Both the position numbers and the translations under genes were made by a program. A stretch of 64,000 nucleotides of DNA. Source: Bacillus sp. ISL-7 (GTDB taxonomy: Bacteria > Bacillota > Bacilli > Bacillales_B > DSM-18226). The stretch covers positions 11,163 to 75,162 of the forward strand of contig NZ_JAGGQW010000044.1 of NCBI RefSeq assembly GCF_018613065.1. Direction: 5' to 3'. The notes beneath the pieces are model-generated. The model saw only the letters and a program-made list of their open reading frames with translations. It did not search any database and was not told the origin of the DNA. Position 1 is the stretch's first letter; each line of letters begins with the position of its first letter. Positions 32,828 through 53,670 of the stretch are shown in pieces.

Positions 32828-33276
32828 TTTACAATTTTTAGTGTGTTGGAGATTTACATTTAAACGAAATTATCTTTTCTTTTATGTACAACAACCCACA
32901 TAATTTCGTTACATGCTAATTATTAGAAAATTAATGCAATTGGAATTAGTGGAAGGAAAATGGCAAGTTTCATAACCAATCAATTTAGGAAAAAAGAGGT
33001 ATCTGTTCCCGGGAAAATTGGTAGATTATTCGTTTATGCGGTGCTAGTAACATTCAATTTGTCACATTCTATAATCTCACCAAAAGCTATTATTAATGGT
33101 TTGTTTTAGGACTATGTTTATAAGTTTGTTGGGTCGATTAGAAAAACTTATGAGATAAAAGTAATTACTTGGGTTTTTCATGCACGCCTGTTTCTAATTT
33201 TTTTAGTTTACACATTTATTTACTGCGAAAGCTTTATCCCCAGTTCAAATCCGGGTATTGCCTTCGTTTGATAAAT
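32828..33276. other. Gap upstream of the tRNA
   Basis: No gene. At 33239-33266 the sequence CCCCAGTTCAAATCCGGGT looks like a T-arm (TTCAAAT loop) and could be a tRNA remnant, but no acceptor or anticodon arm can be built around it. Confidence 0.35.
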
Positions 33277-33359
33277 GCTGGTGTGGCGGAATTGGTCAGA
33301 CACGCACGACTCAAAATCGTGTTCCGTGAGGAGTATCGGTTCGACCCCGATCACCGGTA
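33277..33359 (+). tRNA. tRNA-Leu (anticodon CAA)
   Basis: Complete cloverleaf of a class II tRNA: acceptor GCTGGTG / CACCGGT with two G-U pairs and discriminator A; D-arm with GGTCAGAC; anticodon stem CACGA / TCGTG with loop CTCAAAA, hence anticodon CAA; long variable arm TTCC GTGA GGAG; T-arm ATCGG-TTCGACC-CCGAT. CCA is not encoded. Its 3' part is repeated at 54797-54853, making it the likely attachment site of the island. Confidence 0.95.
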
Positions 33360-33360
33360 T
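33304..33360 (+). repeat. Attachment site attL (57-bp direct repeat, copy 1)
   Basis: Identical over 57 bases to 54797-54853; covers the tRNA from the anticodon stem to the 3' end plus one base. tRNA 3' ends are the classical integration target of tyrosine recombinases, and an integrase gene follows 157 bases downstream. Confidence 0.88.
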
Positions 33361-33411
33361 CAATTTGTTTACGAAAGAAAAACGAGAATGCTCGTCATAT
33401 CAACGTTTTAA

Positions 33412-33517: not shown

Positions 33518-34513
33518 ATGAGCAGGAGAAAAAACGAGTTAAATCCACGGGAAATACGGATTATGGAAACAAAGGTGAAGACTTACGTAGAGTCGTTTGC
33601 CGCTGCATTGGATTTATTTCTAAAAGACTGTGAGGTACGTAATTTACGTCCACATACCATTCGTTACTATCAAAATGAAATCCACGCATGATTGAATCAA
33701 CTAAGGGAGCAAGGGATTAACGTTGAAACGTTGTCGCCCGTACTTGTTACACAGGAACATATAAAAGAAAATGTAATTGCATATATGCGTCATCAAAAGG
33801 GTTTACGAATAGTGACGATTAATACACGATTACGAGCATTACGGGCGTTCTTTAACTACTTGCATAAGGCAAAGCACATACCTCAAAATCCATTTGAAGA
33901 CATCACTTTGTTAAAAGATAGAAAGACAGTAATAGCTACATTTTCGAAGGAACAACTCAATAAACTATTTAAACAACCTGATTTAAAGACTTTTACTGGA
34001 GTACGTGATTACACGATACTAATGCTGTTACTGGAAACTGGTATACGTGCTAGCGAATTGGTAGGCATATCGATTGAGGACATTCTATGGGAAGATGATT
34101 TAATCATAATTAGACAATCTAAAAGTTATCGTCAACGACAAGTACCTATTACGAAACCTATGAGGCAACAACTGAAGAAGTATATCATTATACGAGGTAG
34201 TATTGAGACGAATGCTTTGTTTGTCACAGTCGATAGCAATCCGTTGTCTAAACGTGGCCTTCAGAATCAGATAAAGAAGTATGGAAATGAAGCTGGAATT
34301 AAAGGAGTTCGATGCAGTCCTCATACATTTCGTCATACGTTTGCCAAATTGTCGGTGCAGAACGGTGCGAACATATTTGAGTTGCAAGCAATCTTAGGAC
34401 ATACTTCGTTTGAGATAGTTAAGACATACGTTAACCTTTTCGGGAATGACGTAAGAGATCGGCATAGGGAATTTTCACCGTTAAGGATCTTGGATAACTT
34501 AATCAACCCTTGA
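33518..34513 (+). pseudogene. int: Island integrase 1 (tyrosine recombinase) with in-frame stop
   Basis: Starts at ATG 33518 (MSRRKNELNPREIR). After 57 codons a TGA (33689-33691) interrupts the frame inside the core-binding domain (RYYQNEIHA*), and the same frame continues to 34513 with all catalytic residues: Arg in LLETGIRASELVG, HTFRHTFAKL, LGHTSFE and Tyr in TYVNLF. Aligns along its whole length with integrase 2 at 54995. The stop could be a true nonsense mutation or a sequencing error; internal re-initiation would lack part of the DNA-binding domain. It lies next to attL as expected for the integrase of the 21.5-kb island. Confidence 0.88.
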
Positions 34514-39308: not shown

Positions 39309-40562
39309 ATGAGTAAAATTGTTAAGGTGATCGATAGTATGATGGGGACGGGTAAGACCAGTTACGCCATTCAGATGATGAAGGAGGCGGAAATTAACGA
39401 AAAGTTTATTTTTGTAACACCGTTCCTTGACGAGGTCCAACGTATTAAAAAAGAAGTCCATAATAGGGACTTCAAAGAACCTGATGCCAAGCACGGATCA
39501 GGAACAAAACTGGAGTCGTTAAAAAGACTAATATCGAAGGGTGAGGACATAGTAACGACACACGCCTTATTTGCTATGGCAGACGACGAATTAATTGAAT
39601 TACTAAGTTGGTCTAATTACACATTAATTATGGATGAAGTCATGTCGGTTATTTGTCAGATACCTGTTCGAAAGGGCGATATACAAATGATGCTGAATGG
39701 TGGAGCGATAGAGGTTGATGAAAGCGGCAGAGTTACTTGGAAAGAACACCCAAAGTTTGACACAACGTTTAGCATTGTTCGAGATTATGCTATTGCAGGG
39801 AACTTGTACCTAGTAAACAACATTGCATTTGTTTGGAACTTTCCGGCCAAGATTTTTAATCTGTTTGATAGGGTTTATATTATGACCTATATGTTCGACG
39901 GGCAATTGCAAAAGTATTATTACGACTTACACAATGTTCAGTACGATTATTATTTGGTTGTTAAAGAAAAAAATAGATACGAGCTGGGGCCATCATCCGA
40001 TGTTCCGGAAGACCGATCGTACTTAAAGAACCTCATTCATATATATGAAGGAAATTTGAATGAAATTGGTCATATTGATAACACATTGTCAAAAAGTTGG
40101 TTTATAAATAACCACAACAAAGTAAATGTGAAGTGCTTAAAGAACAATCTGTACAATTTTTTAAGGAATATCCATAAGGCTCCTGCCGATAAGATACTTT
40201 GGACAACGTTCAAAGATTATAAGAGAAAAATAGAAGGGAACGGCTTTAGGAAAGAAGAGCCTGAAAATACCTCTAAAGTGGACGTTGGACAAGCCTGTTT
40301 TATTCCGTTTAATTTGCGTGCTACCAACAAATATAGACATAAGGACGTATTGGCATTTTGTTTAAATCGATTTATACATCCAATTGAGGAACATTTTTTT
40401 GAACAGCACAATGTTAAAGTCGATGAAGACTTATTAGCTTTATCCGATTTATTACAGTGGATATTCCGATCTGCCGTAAGAGAGGGTAAACCCGTCCATA
40501 TCTATATACCAAGTCGTAGAATGCGTGAATTACTGAAGAAGTGGTTAAATAACGAAATCTAA
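39309..40562 (+). CDS. P-loop helicase-like ATPase
   Basis: 417 residues. Walker A at residues 13-17 (MMGTGKTSYA), Walker B near 108 (LIMDEVMSVI) and a motif III-like THALFAMAD, consistent with a superfamily 2 DEAD/DEAH-type core; the C-terminal half contains a second RecA-like part ending in CFIPFNLRATNKYRHKDVLA, the STNK/RAT region found in phage and plasmid replication helicases. Predicted role is element replication or DNA handling. RBS CTGGAGGAAG. No primase or initiator is recognisable beside it. Confidence 0.75.
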   Translation: MSKIVKVIDSMMGTGKTSYAIQMMKEAEINEKFIFVTPFLDEVQRIKKEVHNRDFKEPDAKHGSGTKLESLKRLISKGEDIVTTHALFAMADDELIELLSWSNYTLIMDEVMSVICQIPVRKGDIQMMLNGGAIEVDESGRVTWKEHPKFDTTFSIVRDYAIAGNLYLVNNIAFVWNFPAKIFNLFDRVYIMTYMFDGQLQKYYYDLHNVQYDYYLVVKEKNRYELGPSSDVPEDRSYLKNLIHIYEGNLNEIGHIDNTLSKSWFINNHNKVNVKCLKNNLYNFLRNIHKAPADKILWTTFKDYKRKIEGNGFRKEEPENTSKVDVGQACFIPFNLRATNKYRHKDVLAFCLNRFIHPIEEHFFEQHNVKVDEDLLALSDLLQWIFRSAVREGKPVHIYIPSRRMRELLKKWLNNEI

Positions 40563-40706: not shown

Positions 40707-40958
40707 ATGATCGTTGATTTAGCGCATCACAGGTGGCGGAAAAGATTATTGGATTCACGCAAAGAAGGAACGGTATATCAACTACTAGGTTTGGACGAGC
40801 ATAGTGTTATGGACATTTTTTTTAGCTATAAAAACGGCAAGTGGTGTTTTAAGCCAGACTTATCGAAACCAGTTATAGAATTTGACGATGTAGATAAAGC
40901 AACAGAGTACATAATCTCGTTGGGTGTCGAAGAGTACGATTCACAATTCGGTATTTAG
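40707..40958 (+). CDS. Small acidic protein of unknown function
   Basis: 83 residues with a strong AAGGAGGGCG site. Basic start (DLAHHRWRKRLLDSRKEG), acidic C-terminus (VIEFDDVDKATEYIISLGVEEYD). No family recognised; phage-style small gene. It directly precedes the large gap holding a conserved RNA-like block. Confidence 0.65.
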   Translation: MIVDLAHHRWRKRLLDSRKEGTVYQLLGLDEHSVMDIFFSYKNGKWCFKPDLSKPVIEFDDVDKATEYIISLGVEEYDSQFGI

Positions 40959-41690
40959 ACGGTATGACTTACGGGATGTGCATCTACTAATCTAGCAAGA
41001 GGACCATGCTAAAATCGTCTGAAAACCCAGTCGTATCAAGGGTTCAAGGCGTGTTGGTCTTAAAAGAAAGTATATGACGTAATAACCTTCGCCTGACGGC
41101 TCGGTGATGTAACTAAAGCATATTAGCTTCAGTAACATCTATAAAATACTGACGGTGTAGTTTTAATAGAAGACTGCCTAAGCAGGATTCAACTGAGCGT
41201 CAGCGAAGTTTAAGACGTCTTACGATTAAATGTTAAGCCAAAAAGTAAAATTATTGTACAGGATTTTTGATTAGCATCTGATCCGACTCAGTGGCGGCTT
41301 CCATCGATTTATAGAAATACACTTGATGCAGCTTGACCGAAAATGGCGTTCCTGGAAACCTCGGGGTTTACGGATTAGCTGTTCAACAACCTTGATGTAC
41401 CAAGCGTTTGGAAGGTATTTTTAATCGATTTGTAAAGTGAATTTGCTTGACAATATGACATTGAAACCGTCACTTTTCGGAAAACTTCGAGGAGGCGACT
41501 TAACTTACTTTATTACGATAAAGCGTTGTTAAAACTGGGTTTCGAGATATCTACCGTGCTTTAATACGCTGAAGGATATGACGTTAATCAATACCTACCA
41601 GAAATCCAGTGACAGTAACTAGACTAAATTGTCGTATCCCTAAATAAGAAAAGGCGACACCCTTATTGAAGTAACAGCCATAAACTTTAA
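40959..41690 (+). ncRNA. Candidate large structured RNA, copy A
   Basis: A 730-base gap without reading frames. Bases 40992-41212 are conserved with 52933-53152 (copy B): by my count 17 differences over 147 aligned bases (40993-41139) with no gap. Conserved pairing: hairpin TAGCA/TGCTA (40993-41011) whose loop contains GACCA, able to pair with TGGTC at 41055-41059 as a pseudoknot; copy B has GATCG there, which still pairs with its TGGTC through G-U pairs. A second hairpin GATGTAACT...AGTAACATC (41106-41139) keeps its AAGC/GCTT stem while its loop varies. The pattern is that of a functional RNA, not a gene. Candidate classes are large phage-associated RNAs such as GOLLD or ROOL; I cannot confirm membership. 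Strand is assumed from the neighbours. Confidence 0.6.
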
Positions 41691-42710
41691 TTATTCGGTG
41701 TCTTTTGTTTGGGATAGTTTTTGTTTATCGGTAGTTCCAGGTGGTTGTTCTAGCCATTTGTTATCAATCAAGATGTTAACTCCATCCTTAGCATACTGAG
41801 CGACTTCTAGCGATAAGCGTTCATAATTTAGAAAAAGGTCTGTTCTTTGACTTGCCGCCGCTCCAGTTGCGTAATTTCCTGAACCAGTCGCACTTAACAA
41901 TGCCATATGAGACATGGCTAATTTGTCTGAGAATGGCGGTGTAGTTGAATTTGTTATAGCAACATCTGATGAAATTGGTGGTTGTATATCATTGTCGAGT
42001 AGAGCTGCAGAAAAAATCTGCACATGCTTTTTTGAAATATCGTTACCTCTTAACATCCACTTTTGTATATTTTTTCTCGGTGATGTTTGAGCAAAACTAA
42101 TAGAAAGATGACTACCTATTAGATTGGTTTGAATGTTCATATAAAGATGAGATATTTCAACTGTATTTAAAGGGCGTTGCTTACTGAAAAGAGAAAAACC
42201 ACTTAAATAACTTCTGCTATCTACGTAATCAGTCTTTGTTGGGTATGCAATATACGGTGCTCTTACAAACAATCCTTTAGAAAGTGCGACATCTGAACTT
42301 CTGTCGAATAAATCGGACGTTTCTTTTAGTCCTTCCATAAAATAACCCCTTACATCTTTTCTTGCACTCATGGAAACGAGTCCACTATAAGCAAGTAACC
42401 CAACCTTTGCCATGTGGTTTATGTAAGTCAGCATAAATGAATCAGTATATAGGGGAGGAGCATTTAAATTGACATCTTCGTTAGTAAATCCTGTTGGTAA
42501 TGGCAAATCTTCTTCTTCGAAAAGATGAGTTAGTTTTTCTATATGAGAAACTGTAAGGTCATATGCAAACTGTATAATAGGCCTTATATCTGAGTCTTTA
42601 ACATGTACTAGAAAATATCCAAGAATGCACTTAGCCATACTATCGTTCATATAGCCAGTCCAAGTACAAGCGATTTCTGATGATGTTAGGCTAATACGGT
42701 TTTCAGTCAT
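41691..42710 (-). CDS. DUF3231 family protein
   Basis: 339 residues, two tandem DUF3231 repeats (about 5-165 and 180-325). Each begins with LTSSEI.. or LNTVEISH.. and is all-helical with ferritin/rubrerythrin-like His and Glu positions (SHIEKLTHLFEEEDLPLPTGF; KKHVQIFSAALLDNDIQPP), ending KWLEQPPGTTD. Function unknown; widespread and multicopy in Bacillus, often on mobile DNA. RBS GAAGGAG. One of three loci in the window plus the 3' end of a fourth. Confidence 0.88.
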   Translation of the reverse strand: MTENRISLTSSEIACTWTGYMNDSMAKCILGYFLVHVKDSDIRPIIQFAYDLTVSHIEKLTHLFEEEDLPLPTGFTNEDVNLNAPPLYTDSFMLTYINHMAKVGLLAYSGLVSMSARKDVRGYFMEGLKETSDLFDRSSDVALSKGLFVRAPYIAYPTKTDYVDSRSYLSGFSLFSKQRPLNTVEISHLYMNIQTNLIGSHLSISFAQTSPRKNIQKWMLRGNDISKKHVQIFSAALLDNDIQPPISSDVAITNSTTPPFSDKLAMSHMALLSATGSGNYATGAAASQRTDLFLNYERLSLEVAQYAKDGVNILIDNKWLEQPPGTTDKQKLSQTKDTE

Positions 42711-43257: not shown

Positions 43258-43872
43258 ATGGATAATCGTAAATTCGGATACATTCGTGTTAGCAGTCGAG
43301 ATCAGAACGAGGCACGTCAGCTGCAGTCTATGAAAGAAGTCGGCATAAGCGACAGGGACATTTTTATCGATAAGCAGAGTGGGAAAGATTTCAAACGGGA
43401 ACAGTATCAGTCTTTAAAGCATCATTTAAGAGCTGGTGATGTATTATACATTCATTCGTTAGACCGATTTGGACGTAACAAGGAAGAAATTTTACATGAA
43501 TGGACAGACATTACTAAGAACAAGAAAGCGGATATCGTTGTTTTGGATATGCCTTTACTAGACACTACCAAGTTCCAGGATAGCCTAGGAACGTTTATTT
43601 CCGACCTTGTACTACAGATACTTTCGTGGTTAGCTGAAGACGAAAGAGAACGGATCAGGAAGCGTCAAAGAGAAGGGATTAATGTAGCTCAAAAAGATGG
43701 TATACGCTTTGGCCGACCTAAAGCTGAAATAACTGATGAATTCATTATGGTCTATAATGAGTGGAAAGAAGAGAGTATTACTGCAACAGAAGCAATGAAA
43801 AGAGCGGACATGAAGCGAACAACATTTTATAAATTAGTTAAGGAATACGAGGAGCAACGGGCGAGCCTATAG
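43258..43872 (+). CDS. Serine recombinase / resolvase
   Basis: 204 residues. Resolvase/invertase catalytic domain with the active Ser in FGYIRVSSRDQNEARQL and DRFGRNKEEI, the long E helix (LSWLAEDERERIRKRQREGI) and a C-terminal helix-turn-helix (SITATEAMKRADMKRTTFYKLVKEYE). Length fits small resolvases of the Pin/TnpR group. RBS GAGAGGAGT. Its relic with the same upstream repeats is at 12799-13003. Confidence 0.93.
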   Translation: MDNRKFGYIRVSSRDQNEARQLQSMKEVGISDRDIFIDKQSGKDFKREQYQSLKHHLRAGDVLYIHSLDRFGRNKEEILHEWTDITKNKKADIVVLDMPLLDTTKFQDSLGTFISDLVLQILSWLAEDERERIRKRQREGINVAQKDGIRFGRPKAEITDEFIMVYNEWKEESITATEAMKRADMKRTTFYKLVKEYEEQRASL

Positions 43873-47120: not shown

Positions 47121-47160
47121 AAATTAAAATGCCCGACCGATTGGGAAGGGCATTTAATTT
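47121..47160. terminator. Terminator of DUF3231 gene
   Basis: AAATTAAAATGCCC / GGGCATTTAATTT with a 13-nt loop; the right arm overlaps the stop codon. Confidence 0.85.
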
Positions 47161-48163
47161 ATTTTTCTTTTGCAATTTCTGTTCTATTAGGTGCAAGTGG
47201 AGGTTGTTCTAACCATTTATTTTGCACCATAATATTAAACCACTTTTTAGTAAGCATAAGATTTTGTAGAATGGTGCTTTCGTAAGTAGATACAAGGTCT
47301 GTTCGCATTGCAGATGCTAAACCTACCCCGTGATACGCTTGTGCAGCTTGGAATAAGAAACCAGTATGATACAACATTAACTTATCGGAAAAAGGAGAGT
47401 CTGTTGAAGTTGTAACTTCAGTCTCCCACGACTTAGGAACTGGTAAATTATCCGTTTGCATAATTTTTGAAAAATCTTTTATTTGTTGATTAGCTATTTT
47501 TTCAGCATACTCGAAAAATTTTCTTCCTTCTTTTGTTTGTGTGACTTGACTAAATGCAATTGCAAGAGTTTTTGCCATAATACTTTTCTTTAGGTTGAAA
47601 GAAATACTTATGATTTCTGTCGCTGCTAACGTTCTACCCTTTCCGAAAAATCCATCTGTGAAATCTTGGCTGGAAACATATTCAGGGTTTTCAGCAGGAT
47701 AAAATAAAGGGTCTCTCTGAAAACTTCCTTTTTCAAGCAATAAATCAATTGTTTGATGATACATCCTTTTCCCATCGTTATCGCACGAGTCGTAAAAAAA
47801 CCTTAAGTCCTCTCTGACAGAAACAGCAAATGAAGTGGAGTGTCCTAGCAAACCGTGTAAAGTCATAATGTGTAAATAATTTAAGCAAAAAATATCAGTG
47901 AACAATCTCGGTTTACCTTTAAAAAGGTCGGATTCCGTAAATCCAATGGGAATAGGAAATTTCTCGTTCTCCAAAAAAGCAACCATTTGTTGCTTTTGCT
48001 TTTCGAAAGTCTTGATAGCATCCTTAAAAATTGCTTTTATTGACTCGTCCTCAATAATAGAAATCATATATCTATTTACAATATCAACAGCTGTTCCATT
48101 TACATACTCTCCCCACAAAGTTCCTATTTCGGAAGATGTGAGTTTTAATTTATCCTTTTCCAT
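47159..48163 (-). CDS. DUF3231 family protein, second intact copy
   Basis: 334 residues with the two-repeat DUF3231 layout: LTSSEIGTLWGEYVNGTAVD, EKFPIPIGFTESDLFKGKPR in the first half, ATEIISISFNLKKSIMAKTL and DSPFSDKLMLYHTGFLFQAA in the second, ending NKWLEQPP. Clearly paralogous to 41691 but well diverged. Start ATG behind GAGGTGGCAG. Its last 22 bases and the DNA beyond recur identically at the right edge of the window. Confidence 0.88.
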   Translation of the reverse strand: MEKDKLKLTSSEIGTLWGEYVNGTAVDIVNRYMISIIEDESIKAIFKDAIKTFEKQKQQMVAFLENEKFPIPIGFTESDLFKGKPRLFTDIFCLNYLHIMTLHGLLGHSTSFAVSVREDLRFFYDSCDNDGKRMYHQTIDLLLEKGSFQRDPLFYPAENPEYVSSQDFTDGFFGKGRTLAATEIISISFNLKKSIMAKTLAIAFSQVTQTKEGRKFFEYAEKIANQQIKDFSKIMQTDNLPVPKSWETEVTTSTDSPFSDKLMLYHTGFLFQAAQAYHGVGLASAMRTDLVSTYESTILQNLMLTKKWFNIMVQNKWLEQPPLAPNRTEIAKEK

Positions 48164-49926: not shown

Positions 49927-51150
49927 TTAGGATGCTTCTGGTTCTTTAATTGATACGATATAACCAAAACTTTCAAGTCTTCTTAAGGAATGTCGAACAA
50001 TAGATTGCTGTCTTTGTTTATCGAAGTAGTCTTCGCCTAAATCTACATACATTTCTTTACGGGTTAATAGATAATAAGCGATTCTTAACATCGCATGGGC
50101 TACTACTATTCCAGCTTTTTTCTTCCCTTTTCGTGATGCTGTAAGCCTATACAGTGCTCCGAGATAGTTTTTTGATGCTTTAACTGAATGAGCTGCTTCT
50201 ATTAATGAAGATTTTAAATATTTATTTCCTTTTTTGGTTTTAGAAGATTTCCTTTTTCCGGCACTTTCGTTATGACCAGGAACTAGGCCCGCCCACGAAC
50301 ACATATGAGCTGCAGATGGAAATTGTTCTTTAATATTGTTTCCTAATTCAGCCATCATTTGTTCCGCCATTCGTGTAGCGATACCAGGGATGGAATCAAG
50401 TCGTTCTACATCTTCTTGATAAGAACTTAATCTTTGGGCTACTTCTTGATCCAACATTTCAATTTGCTCGGTAAGGAAATCAATGTGTTTTAAAATGGTT
50501 TTTAACATCAGACGTTGATGAGGATTAATATAACCATTAAGAGCCAGCTCAAGTTCTTCTTTCTTCTTTTTCAGTGTACGTCTAGCTAAGTTTGCTAGTT
50601 TCTCAGGATCATCTTCACCATCTGCGATTGAATTAAGCATATCTTTTGCTGAAACCCCCATAATGTCAGAAACAACCGATCCTAGTTTGATGTTAGCACC
50701 TTCCAACACCTTTTGGATTCGATTGATTTGTCTTGCCCGTTCTTCAATAATACTCCGACGATAACGCACAAGTTCTCGTAACTCTCGTTGGTTTCGGTTT
50801 GGAATATAACTGGGTTTTAGTAGTCCGTGCCGAAGAAGCTGAGCAATCCACTCTGCATCCTTAACGTCGGTCTTGCGACCAGGGAGTGCCTTCATATGCT
50901 GGGCATTCACTACTAAAAACTCAATTCCTTTAGCTTCAAGTAGGTTAACGATGGGTTTCCAATATACACTTGTGCTTTCCATAGCCACATGGGTACATTT
51001 ATGTTCCTTAATCCAATCAATTAATTGTAGTAAAAATACTGTTTTAGTCGAAAAAGTTTTAATCTCCTTTCCTTCAGTTGTCATAATACATGCAGTAATA
51101 TTGTCCTTATGGACATCCATTCCACATGCTCTTTCAATGATTACATCCAT
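49927..51150 (-). CDS. IS110-family transposase (DEDD recombinase)
   Basis: 407 residues from ATG 51150 (MDVIIERACGMDVHKDNITA). RuvC-like DEDD domain: Asp in GMDVHKD, Glu in HVAMESTSVYW, two Asp in LPGRKTDVKDAEWIAQLL. A coiled middle part leads to the C-terminal Tnp domain with RLDSIPGIATRMAEQMMAEL and the catalytic Ser region SWAGLVPGHNESAGKRKSSK. These enzymes recombine DNA guided by a bispecific bridge RNA encoded in the element end. Full length, apparently intact. Confidence 0.94.
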   Translation of the reverse strand: MDVIIERACGMDVHKDNITACIMTTEGKEIKTFSTKTVFLLQLIDWIKEHKCTHVAMESTSVYWKPIVNLLEAKGIEFLVVNAQHMKALPGRKTDVKDAEWIAQLLRHGLLKPSYIPNRNQRELRELVRYRRSIIEERARQINRIQKVLEGANIKLGSVVSDIMGVSAKDMLNSIADGEDDPEKLANLARRTLKKKKEELELALNGYINPHQRLMLKTILKHIDFLTEQIEMLDQEVAQRLSSYQEDVERLDSIPGIATRMAEQMMAELGNNIKEQFPSAAHMCSWAGLVPGHNESAGKRKSSKTKKGNKYLKSSLIEAAHSVKASKNYLGALYRLTASRKGKKKAGIVVAHAMLRIAYYLLTRKEMYVDLGEDYFDKQRQQSIVRHSLRRLESFGYIVSIKEPEAS

Positions 51151-51159
51151 TGAAATTTT

Positions 51160-51400
51160 CCTTTCCACGGCTACTATTTTTAGAGGCTGGTGCAACAACC
51201 AGAATAGGATTAATCTACTATGAGTGCTTCCCGTAAGGGAGCGACAGTCTGTGGTGCACCGTGGTCGTTGGAGTCAGACTAACGGATGGGCTCTAACGCA
51301 CCATAGTTCATCGACCTTCCTCTCCCAGCCGTAGAATCAGTATTGACGGTTCTAATATATTTTCATTCTCTGTGGTGTAGCGATGATTTTTCCGCTGCAT
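51160..51400 (-). ncRNA. Probable IS110 bridge RNA
   Basis: The noncoding segment upstream of the transposase, in the position of known IS110 bridge RNAs. It is strongly conserved with an orphan copy at 63129-63323. The hairpin GCTTCCC/GGGAGC (51226-51242) covaries with GCTACCC/GGGTGC there (T-A to A-T). AGACTAACGGATGG (51276-51289) resembles the target repeat AAACTAACGGGTGC; in RNA sense 12 of 14 positions could pair with the target, counting one G-U. Confidence 0.7.
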
Positions 51401-52735: not shown

Positions 52736-53640
52736 ATGTGTTTGGTGCTTAAGTTTAAGAAAGAAAGGTCCTCAAAATGACGATCTTTTTCCTTTGGTCA
52801 CTATTTAAATAACTAACGTACATTTCAAATTTACAGCTCACGAGGGAATATTGCGAAATACGAGAAGAAGATAACAAATAATATAAACTGGCGAGGTTCA
52901 CGGAAGACTTGCTTCCTTTAACGTCTAATAAAACTAGCAAGTTGATCGTGCTAAAATCGTTTAGAAAGCTAGTCGTATCAAGGGTTCATGACGTATTGGT
53001 CTTAAGAGAAAGTATATGACGTAATAACCTTCGCCTGACGGCTCAGTGATGTAACCAAAGCTTATCAGCTTCAGTAACATCAAATAAATATAAACGTGTA
53101 TATTATGTGAAGACTGTGCAAAGCAGGATTCAACTGAACGGTAGTGAAGTTTATTGCAACGTTTATTGCTGTAGAGCTAGTCTATTGCGTATTATCTCTT
53201 TAGGTTGATGGATGAATGTATATGTAAAGACTGTGCGTCTAAATTCACTGCTTTGACCCAGAGAAAACAGAAGTAACTAATTTAGTACTCACCGAATATG
53301 ACGTTGCTTCAAACTATATTACGACTCTAGCTTCTTTTTTTTGCTCTGATCAGCGTACAACTAAGGTATCGCCGTTGTCTCAAAAATGACAGTAATGCTT
53401 TGAATTGTGTAGATGAAGTTTTTGTTCCAGTAAATACCTTTGAAGATATTTTCGTATCATTCTGACTTCAATTTCACGATCTGTTCCACGACGGAATTAC
53501 GATTCACCGTTTGCCCCCTTAGTACTAACTCGTACATAGCCATATTTAATCGTATTTTCCCTTTGAATTATGAACAATAGTTATGACACCTTTTAAACCT
53601 TGATAAATACGACTCAATAATTTGGTGCCAATACTTTTAA
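52736..53640 (+). ncRNA. Candidate large structured RNA, copy B
   Basis: A gene-free 900-base stretch whose segment 52933-53152 is the partner of copy A. Hairpin TAGCA/TGCTA (52935-52953), loop GATCG able to pair with TGGTC at 52997-53001, hairpin GATGTAAC...ACATC (53048-53081) and the downstream GAAGACTG...AGCAGGATTCAACTGA block (53109-53136) are all present. Beyond about 53160 the two copies are no longer clearly alignable by eye; whether the RNA extends over the whole gap is unknown. Strand assumed to be plus. Confidence 0.55.
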
Positions 53641-53670
53641 GTTATGAAACTATTTAGGATATCAGAAGGA

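Follow-up and report, generated by a model that had tools for sequence, protein, structure and literature searches.

The described systems closest to the locus studied here are noncoding RNAs on the one hand and replication origins on the other. The large GOLLD and ROOL RNAs are reported from prophage-like elements, frequently close to tRNA genes (PMC12286853). Among replication functions, phage Sfi21 is reported to carry a 302-bp noncoding origin element (PMC6356513), the pSK41 origin is located centrally within rep (PMC5703833), and sso1 of ICEBs1 consists of several stem-loops close to replication functions (PMC4595007). The gene yonV forms the end of a long SPbeta transcript (PMC5848175). 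A sequence-only reading of the window (the whole analysed stretch of 64,000 nucleotides) had proposed a large noncoding RNA, possibly of a new class, in a block that occurs twice (copies A and B). Our evidence points to two modules, an origin-like module and a folding module termed D1, rather than to one large RNA. We consider it fairly probable that an integrated island of phage- or plasmid-like kind has its replication origin in this block, where a 17-bp motif is followed by a 150-bp module that is predicted to fold in single-stranded form. Of the two, the origin module is the better supported, and the role of D1 is less firm.

Comparison of the two copies confirmed the earlier description of the DNA itself. 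Positions 40993-41139 align without gaps to 52935-53081 with exactly the 17 differences in 147 positions that had been counted, and a gapped match of 40983-41212 to 52924-53153 reaches 83% over 232 columns (E ~1e-57). The gap at 40959-41690 is indeed without a reading frame, the longest stop-to-stop frame in any of the six frames being 49 codons, and the hairpin TAGCA/TGCTA is present in both window copies. The suggested pseudoknot stood in part: the 5-base pairing GACCA/TGGTC exists in A, but it is not kept across all six copies examined. Four pairs are possible in register in the copies G001a and G126, at most two in G001b, and the longest match detected for B and G108 sits in a different register. 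Rfam gave no link to known large RNAs: around both copies, the matches listed to a limit of E = 10 included none of GOLLD, ROOL, OLE and HEARO. At the gathering score, the whole window yielded tRNA only, and the window together with 12 further loci yielded no relevant family. The idea that the block is more conserved than its neighbours was given up, as between A and G001a the DUF3231 gene is conserved to the same degree as the block (0.95-1.00 for the gene and 0.80-0.99 for the block, per 100 bases).

Block A is preceded by genes for a tyrosine integrase, YolD, HNH and BRO/KilAC proteins, a helicase-like protein and an 83-aa ORF, and is followed by a DUF3231 gene on the opposite strand and a serine recombinase gene (Table 1). 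The tyrosine integrase near tRNA-Leu likely marks one end of the island. Assignment of the helicase-like gene to the YonV family is based on a PHROG match (E 1.3e-76) and on PF27199, which is assigned to its relatives. The encoded protein is 43% identical to phi3T_69, itself annotated for its similarity to SPbeta yonV. Its relatives at E up to 1e-10 number 1,244; among those with a named source, one from Neobacillus (81%) is closest. A one-sequence structure model of this protein had a pLDDT of 33 and was set aside. Block B is on the 3' side of a GIY-YIG gene and precedes a second integrase gene. Several window genes form pairs with the same relatives, namely the integrases at 33692-34513/54995-55990 and the pairs 36121-36468/56696-57004 and 46040-46609/56090-56623 (YolD, unknown protein), which suggests that two related islands adjoin each other, the first bearing copy A and the second copy B.

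Table 1 Positions of the features discussed, numbered within the window
Feature	Position	Strand	Remarks
Tyrosine integrase	33692..34513	+	near tRNA-Leu(CAA) 33276-33361
YonV-family helicase-like gene, 417 aa	39309..40562	+	upstream of block A; phrog_2467, PF27199
83-aa ORF	40707..40958	+	between helicase gene and block A; G001a without aligned counterpart
First hairpin (TAGCA/TGCTA) of origin-like module	40992..41011		kept in both window copies
Origin-type motif CAGTCGTATCAAGGGTT, 17 bp	41028..41044	+	
AT-rich stretch CTTAAAAGAAAGTATATGA past motif	41059..41077	+	resembles post-motif stretch in G062, L098, phi3T
D1, conserved 150-nt module, predicted fold	41068..41217		model R1, 172 bits
D2, conserved stretch	41308..41467		also in G001a, G114a, G114b
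D3, conserved stretch	41463..41591		also in G001a, G114a, G152, G417
DUF3231 genes	41691-42710 and 47159-48163	-	two in same island
Serine recombinase gene	43258..43872	+	3' side of region
Motif copy B	52970..52986	+	one mismatch
D1 copy B	53010..53158		164 bits with R1

Further observations concern the surroundings of the two blocks. The C-terminal ~190 residues of the YonV-like protein (window 39309-40562) recur with 32% identity behind a GIY-YIG start in plasmid plaBV1 (L144:2704-3552), where the gene with the GIY-YIG start adjoins a full YonV-like gene. The stretch 53522-53650, 3' of copy B, recurs near the starts of serine recombinase genes in L026, L032 and L121 and is perhaps a candidate recombinase site. 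An IS110 bridge RNA was rejected as a candidate: the IS110-type gene (49927-51198, minus strand) is 1.7 kb from the start of copy B, and no IS110 gene was found among the ORFs scanned near copy A.

The first part of the block (40983-41077) carries the motif CAGTC[GA]TATCAAGGGTT, 3' of the YonV-family gene. The motif is situated 465 bp past the helicase stop and behind the 83-aa ORF, and both this distance and the extra ORF count against the origin reading. Exact matches to the 17-bp motif were found in 53 viral-contig stretches, and the pattern CAGTCRYATCAAGGGTT occurred at 21 sites in 20 of 193 genomes, compared with none for the reversed control pattern. The motif loci from viral contigs and the 193 genomes (n=74) fell into 33 flank clusters. 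Four clusters (8, 6, 4 and 3 loci) adjoin D5-type primase-helicase genes, as assigned by Pfam on one member in three of them and by BLAST cluster in the fourth. The motif lies 3' of these genes in either orientation, which argues for a role as DNA. One two-locus cluster is located inside a Phage_rep_O gene (Pfam, one member), and three single loci adjoin YonV-type genes. Clusters of 11 and 3 loci adjoin integrase genes (Pfam, one member each), as does one further locus (PHROG); a role as origin is less obvious there, and this company of integrase genes and att-like sites speaks against the origin reading. The other loci carry no such assignment. Several viral-contig matches that fall within coding genes (L051, L062 and L067 among them) are probably due to chance, and were retained in the counts.

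In the 11-locus cluster (L092-L095, L097, L100, L102, L105, L106, L108, L110), the motif CAGTCATATCAAGGGTT sits beside an att-like site, between the repeats at the integrase end (ATGTTAGCAAA) and a groEL-like sequence, which we take to be the 3' end of groEL. The notion of a hairpin before every motif was unsupported, with folding z-scores below -1.5 at 17 of 46 sites and a value of +0.4 at A. A text search of one collection of papers for the motif letters in four spellings gave no match, which does not show that the motif is undescribed.

We then considered yonV loci specifically. Of 246 viral loci with a yonV relative, the best 80 were tested. In this set, the motif was present near the yonV 3' end (-100 to +500 of the end of the protein match) at 25 loci with up to one mismatch and at 36 loci with up to three, and up to one mismatch it was found elsewhere in none of the 80. 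At the other 44 of these best 80 loci it was absent even at three mismatches, which has to be counted against an origin function. The sites listed with up to one mismatch lie 42-44 bp past the match end. As many of the 80 loci are close SPbeta relatives, these counts are not independent. In phi3T and plasmid plaBV1, the motif likewise lies 3' of a yonV-type gene.

Annotated phages and plasmids place the motif in further replication contexts. When such records were searched with a 30-nt motif consensus, matches appeared in 169 of 50,697 from phages and 359 of 72,556 from plasmids; the threshold (E up to 10) is loose and lets chance matches through. Six phage records were examined beyond phi3T. 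Three had a primase or primase/helicase gene near the motif, with distances of 22 and 54 bp to DNA primase genes in Streptococcus satellites and of 176 bp to one phage primase/helicase gene; in two the neighbour was a gene adjoining a replication-protein gene, and in one it was FtsK/SpoIIIE. In the plasmids pt38 (one mismatch) and pSpnP1 (two mismatches), the motif lies ~50 bp past CTTATCTTGATA, presumably the nick region of the pC194/pUB110 type, and ahead of rep. A motif-like site in pLNU8 lies ~50 bp past TCTTGTCTTGATA, the site in the 1377-bp pMA2609B (two mismatches) ~147 bp before repL, and that in staphylococcal pT8Gha ~370 bp from the rep gene. Among the 40 plasmid matches listed, 23 were from Enterococcus, and 22 of these 23 fall inside the gene for replication initiator protein A (20-nt match). 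In the E. faecium repA record, the 20-nt match covers bases 507-526 of the 1041-base gene, with two mismatches at the motif end. The signal is thus shared with known origin regions, both near CTTATCTTGATA before rep (pt38, pSpnP1) and inside repA (E. faecium plasmids). Considering that the motif accompanies unrelated kinds of replication genes, sits where known plasmid origins sit and is free in orientation, we read 40983-41077 as an origin module.

The second module, D1, has a much narrower distribution. Locus L010 from Bacillus sp. ISL-18 matches the A region over positions 25-732 with 87%, and its genome (G001) carries a second, B-type copy. A DNA search of 193 genomes of the family of G001 gave matches in 12 at E up to 0.001, several via short stretches only. 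R1, a covariance model of D1 built from eight sequences, matched 5 of these 193 genomes at seven places, 2 of 397 genomes in an order sample (one of them new, G417), 1 of 19 in the family of G417 (G417 itself) and 1 of 398 in a class sample (G001 itself), i.e., 1,007 genome scans in which some genomes were counted more than once. D1 is therefore known in 10 copies: the window has two, and the other eight, of which G114b is partial, are spread over six genomes. Searches of phage and plasmid records revealed no homologues of the 732-nt A region. The G152 region had none in phage records and, in plasmid records, a single 33-base match (E 0.06) that was not counted. Four of five D1 patterns had no match on viral contigs and the fifth occurred in two, within a coding gene. 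An 18-nt pattern found eight loci on genome contigs; L010 alone is a true relative, and the other seven align over 18-24 bases only.

The genes upstream of D1 may be replication genes in most copies. A YonV-like gene precedes it in A, G001a and G126 (fragmented in the latter two), and a gene for a 259-262 aa protein does so in G114a, G114b, G152 and G417. The 259-aa protein has weak matches to RepL, Phage_rep_O and DnaD-like families, and relatives with 29-35% identity are encoded in four plasmid records. Hence, 7 of the 10 D1 copies lie beside a putative replication gene of YonV-like or RepL/RepO-like type, the protein functions themselves being deduced from context and weak family matches. 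The other three follow a GIY-YIG gene (B), a YitT gene (G001b) and a NOV_C/sacsin-like gene (G108), and these neighbours count against the origin reading. The same is true of G114 and G152, in which D1 is present and the exact motif absent; the G417 sequence is likewise without a visible motif, and G001 and G108 have it with one mismatch. Conversely, G062 has a helicase gene followed by the hairpin, the motif and CTTAAAGGAAAATATATAA, and lacks D1. The motif module and D1 are thus separable.

The consensus of eight D1 sequences consists of a long closing helix and two hairpins. In nine sequences, 95.2% of the pair cells are paired, compared with 22.5-36.9% in slid controls. Alternatively, D1, with or without D2 and D3, could be transcribed as a structured RNA of the island that represents a new family and adjoins the replication origin on its 3' side. 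Consistent with this, the upstream gene is co-oriented with D1 in all 10 copies, a hairpin with GA/GA inside is present in 9 of 9 aligned copies, Rfam returned no match, and G-U cells (16) exceed A-C cells (6), a mild plus-strand lean in which two of the six A-C cells stem from an apparent register shift. Two pairs have changed on both sides, and 17 of 500 shuffles gave as many; the +1 slid control, however, has three, more than the real structure. A strand-favoured fold was sought in D1 and not found: z-scores are similar on both strands in the 10 copies, at -1.6 to -6.4 on the plus and -3.0 to -6.8 on the minus strand, with -6.4 and -6.8 in copy A. Promoter and terminator scans near the block were not above shuffles either, except for a terminator after the helicase gene, and plus-strand folding of D2 and D3 is within chance (z of +0.9 to -1.1 in four pieces, with -3.0 for the minus strand of the G114a piece). 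We therefore regard a transcribed D1 as unlikely, though it deserves consideration.

The same evidence bears on the original proposal. A conserved, structured, gene-free element outside the Rfam families has held up, but a single large noncoding RNA is not supported: the first ~95 bp are a DNA module common to many unrelated replicons in either orientation to the neighbouring gene, D1 folds about equally well on both strands, the D2/D3 pieces show no plus-strand excess of folding, the pseudoknot is not general and covariation is modest. The whole 732 nt of A had a folding z of -4.5, which by our reading is mostly owed to D1, and copy B as a whole had -0.6.

The part of the region beyond D1 has features of its own. 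In G417, a 350-aa ORF lies between D1 and D3 (L121:7896-9450), which marks the middle of the region as an entry place for genes. The sequence TATGACRTT closes both D2 and D3 (41454-41462 and 41577-41585) and, if one mismatch is allowed, is seen again toward the end of the conserved region in G114a, G114b, G152 and G417. Such repeats and the inserted ORF, together with a serine recombinase gene 3' of six of the seven A-type copies, would fit D1-D3 being recombination DNA. The serine recombinase or tyrosine integrase encoded nearby would then use it as a res or att-like site, with exchange of cargo genes between such sites. This reading is quite improbable, since the nearby recombinases are clearly different relatives (~31% to 89% identity) while D1 is conserved; moreover, a long foldable element such as D1 is not known to be typical of a res site.

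Returning to the replication origin as the favoured explanation, the block may work as follows. On excision of the island, the YonV-family helicase encoded upstream would open the DNA at the block, and in related islands the protein with weak RepL/RepO-like matches would take its place. Since very different initiators share the same motif, the motif may be recognised by a host factor that acts in helicase loading or in priming, and not by the initiator. D1, which we read as a module predicted to fold when single-stranded, could then fold on the exposed strand and serve as a priming or single-strand initiation site.

More tentatively, CAGTC[GA]TATCAAGGGTT might be a common origin signal of Gram-positive mobile DNA, tied to one conserved host replication factor and used by D5-primase phages, satellites, YonV-type elements, RepA_N theta plasmids and rolling-circle plasmids. 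The islands described here would couple this signal to D1, a new DNA module that would fold and from which the second strand would be started or primed. We put this forward as a possibility that we ourselves doubt somewhat. If one short motif marks origins with unrelated initiators, one would expect all of them to depend on the same step of the host, for example helicase loading or priming. If true, this would offer a testable entry into the replication start of Gram-positive mobile DNA and would make origins in phages, satellites and islands findable by sequence. It would also be a warning that conserved, palindromic, gene-free blocks of islands can be mistaken for large RNAs.

With respect to the known systems, the window block resembles GOLLD and ROOL in its prophage-like setting near a tRNA gene, but differs in having no covariance-model match and no strand-specific fold. 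Like the sso of rolling-circle plasmids and of ICEBs1, the 150-nt D1 region is predicted to fold single-stranded; unlike those replicons, the window has no nicking Rep or relaxase family among its 20 ORFs scanned against Pfam and no sequence match to plasmids. RepA_N plasmids, whose origins lie inside rep, use another initiator, and the record read has two mismatches at the motif end, but they share with the window a 20-nt motif match, placed inside the gene for replication initiator protein A. In the SPbeta-type yonV locus (phi3T_69), as in the window, a YonV-family gene is shortly followed by CAGTCATATCAAGGGTT and a TCTTTAGGGAAAG...TATAAAA stretch. The locus differs in that no D1 was seen in the 360-bp gap inspected, and identity between the two proteins is 43%.
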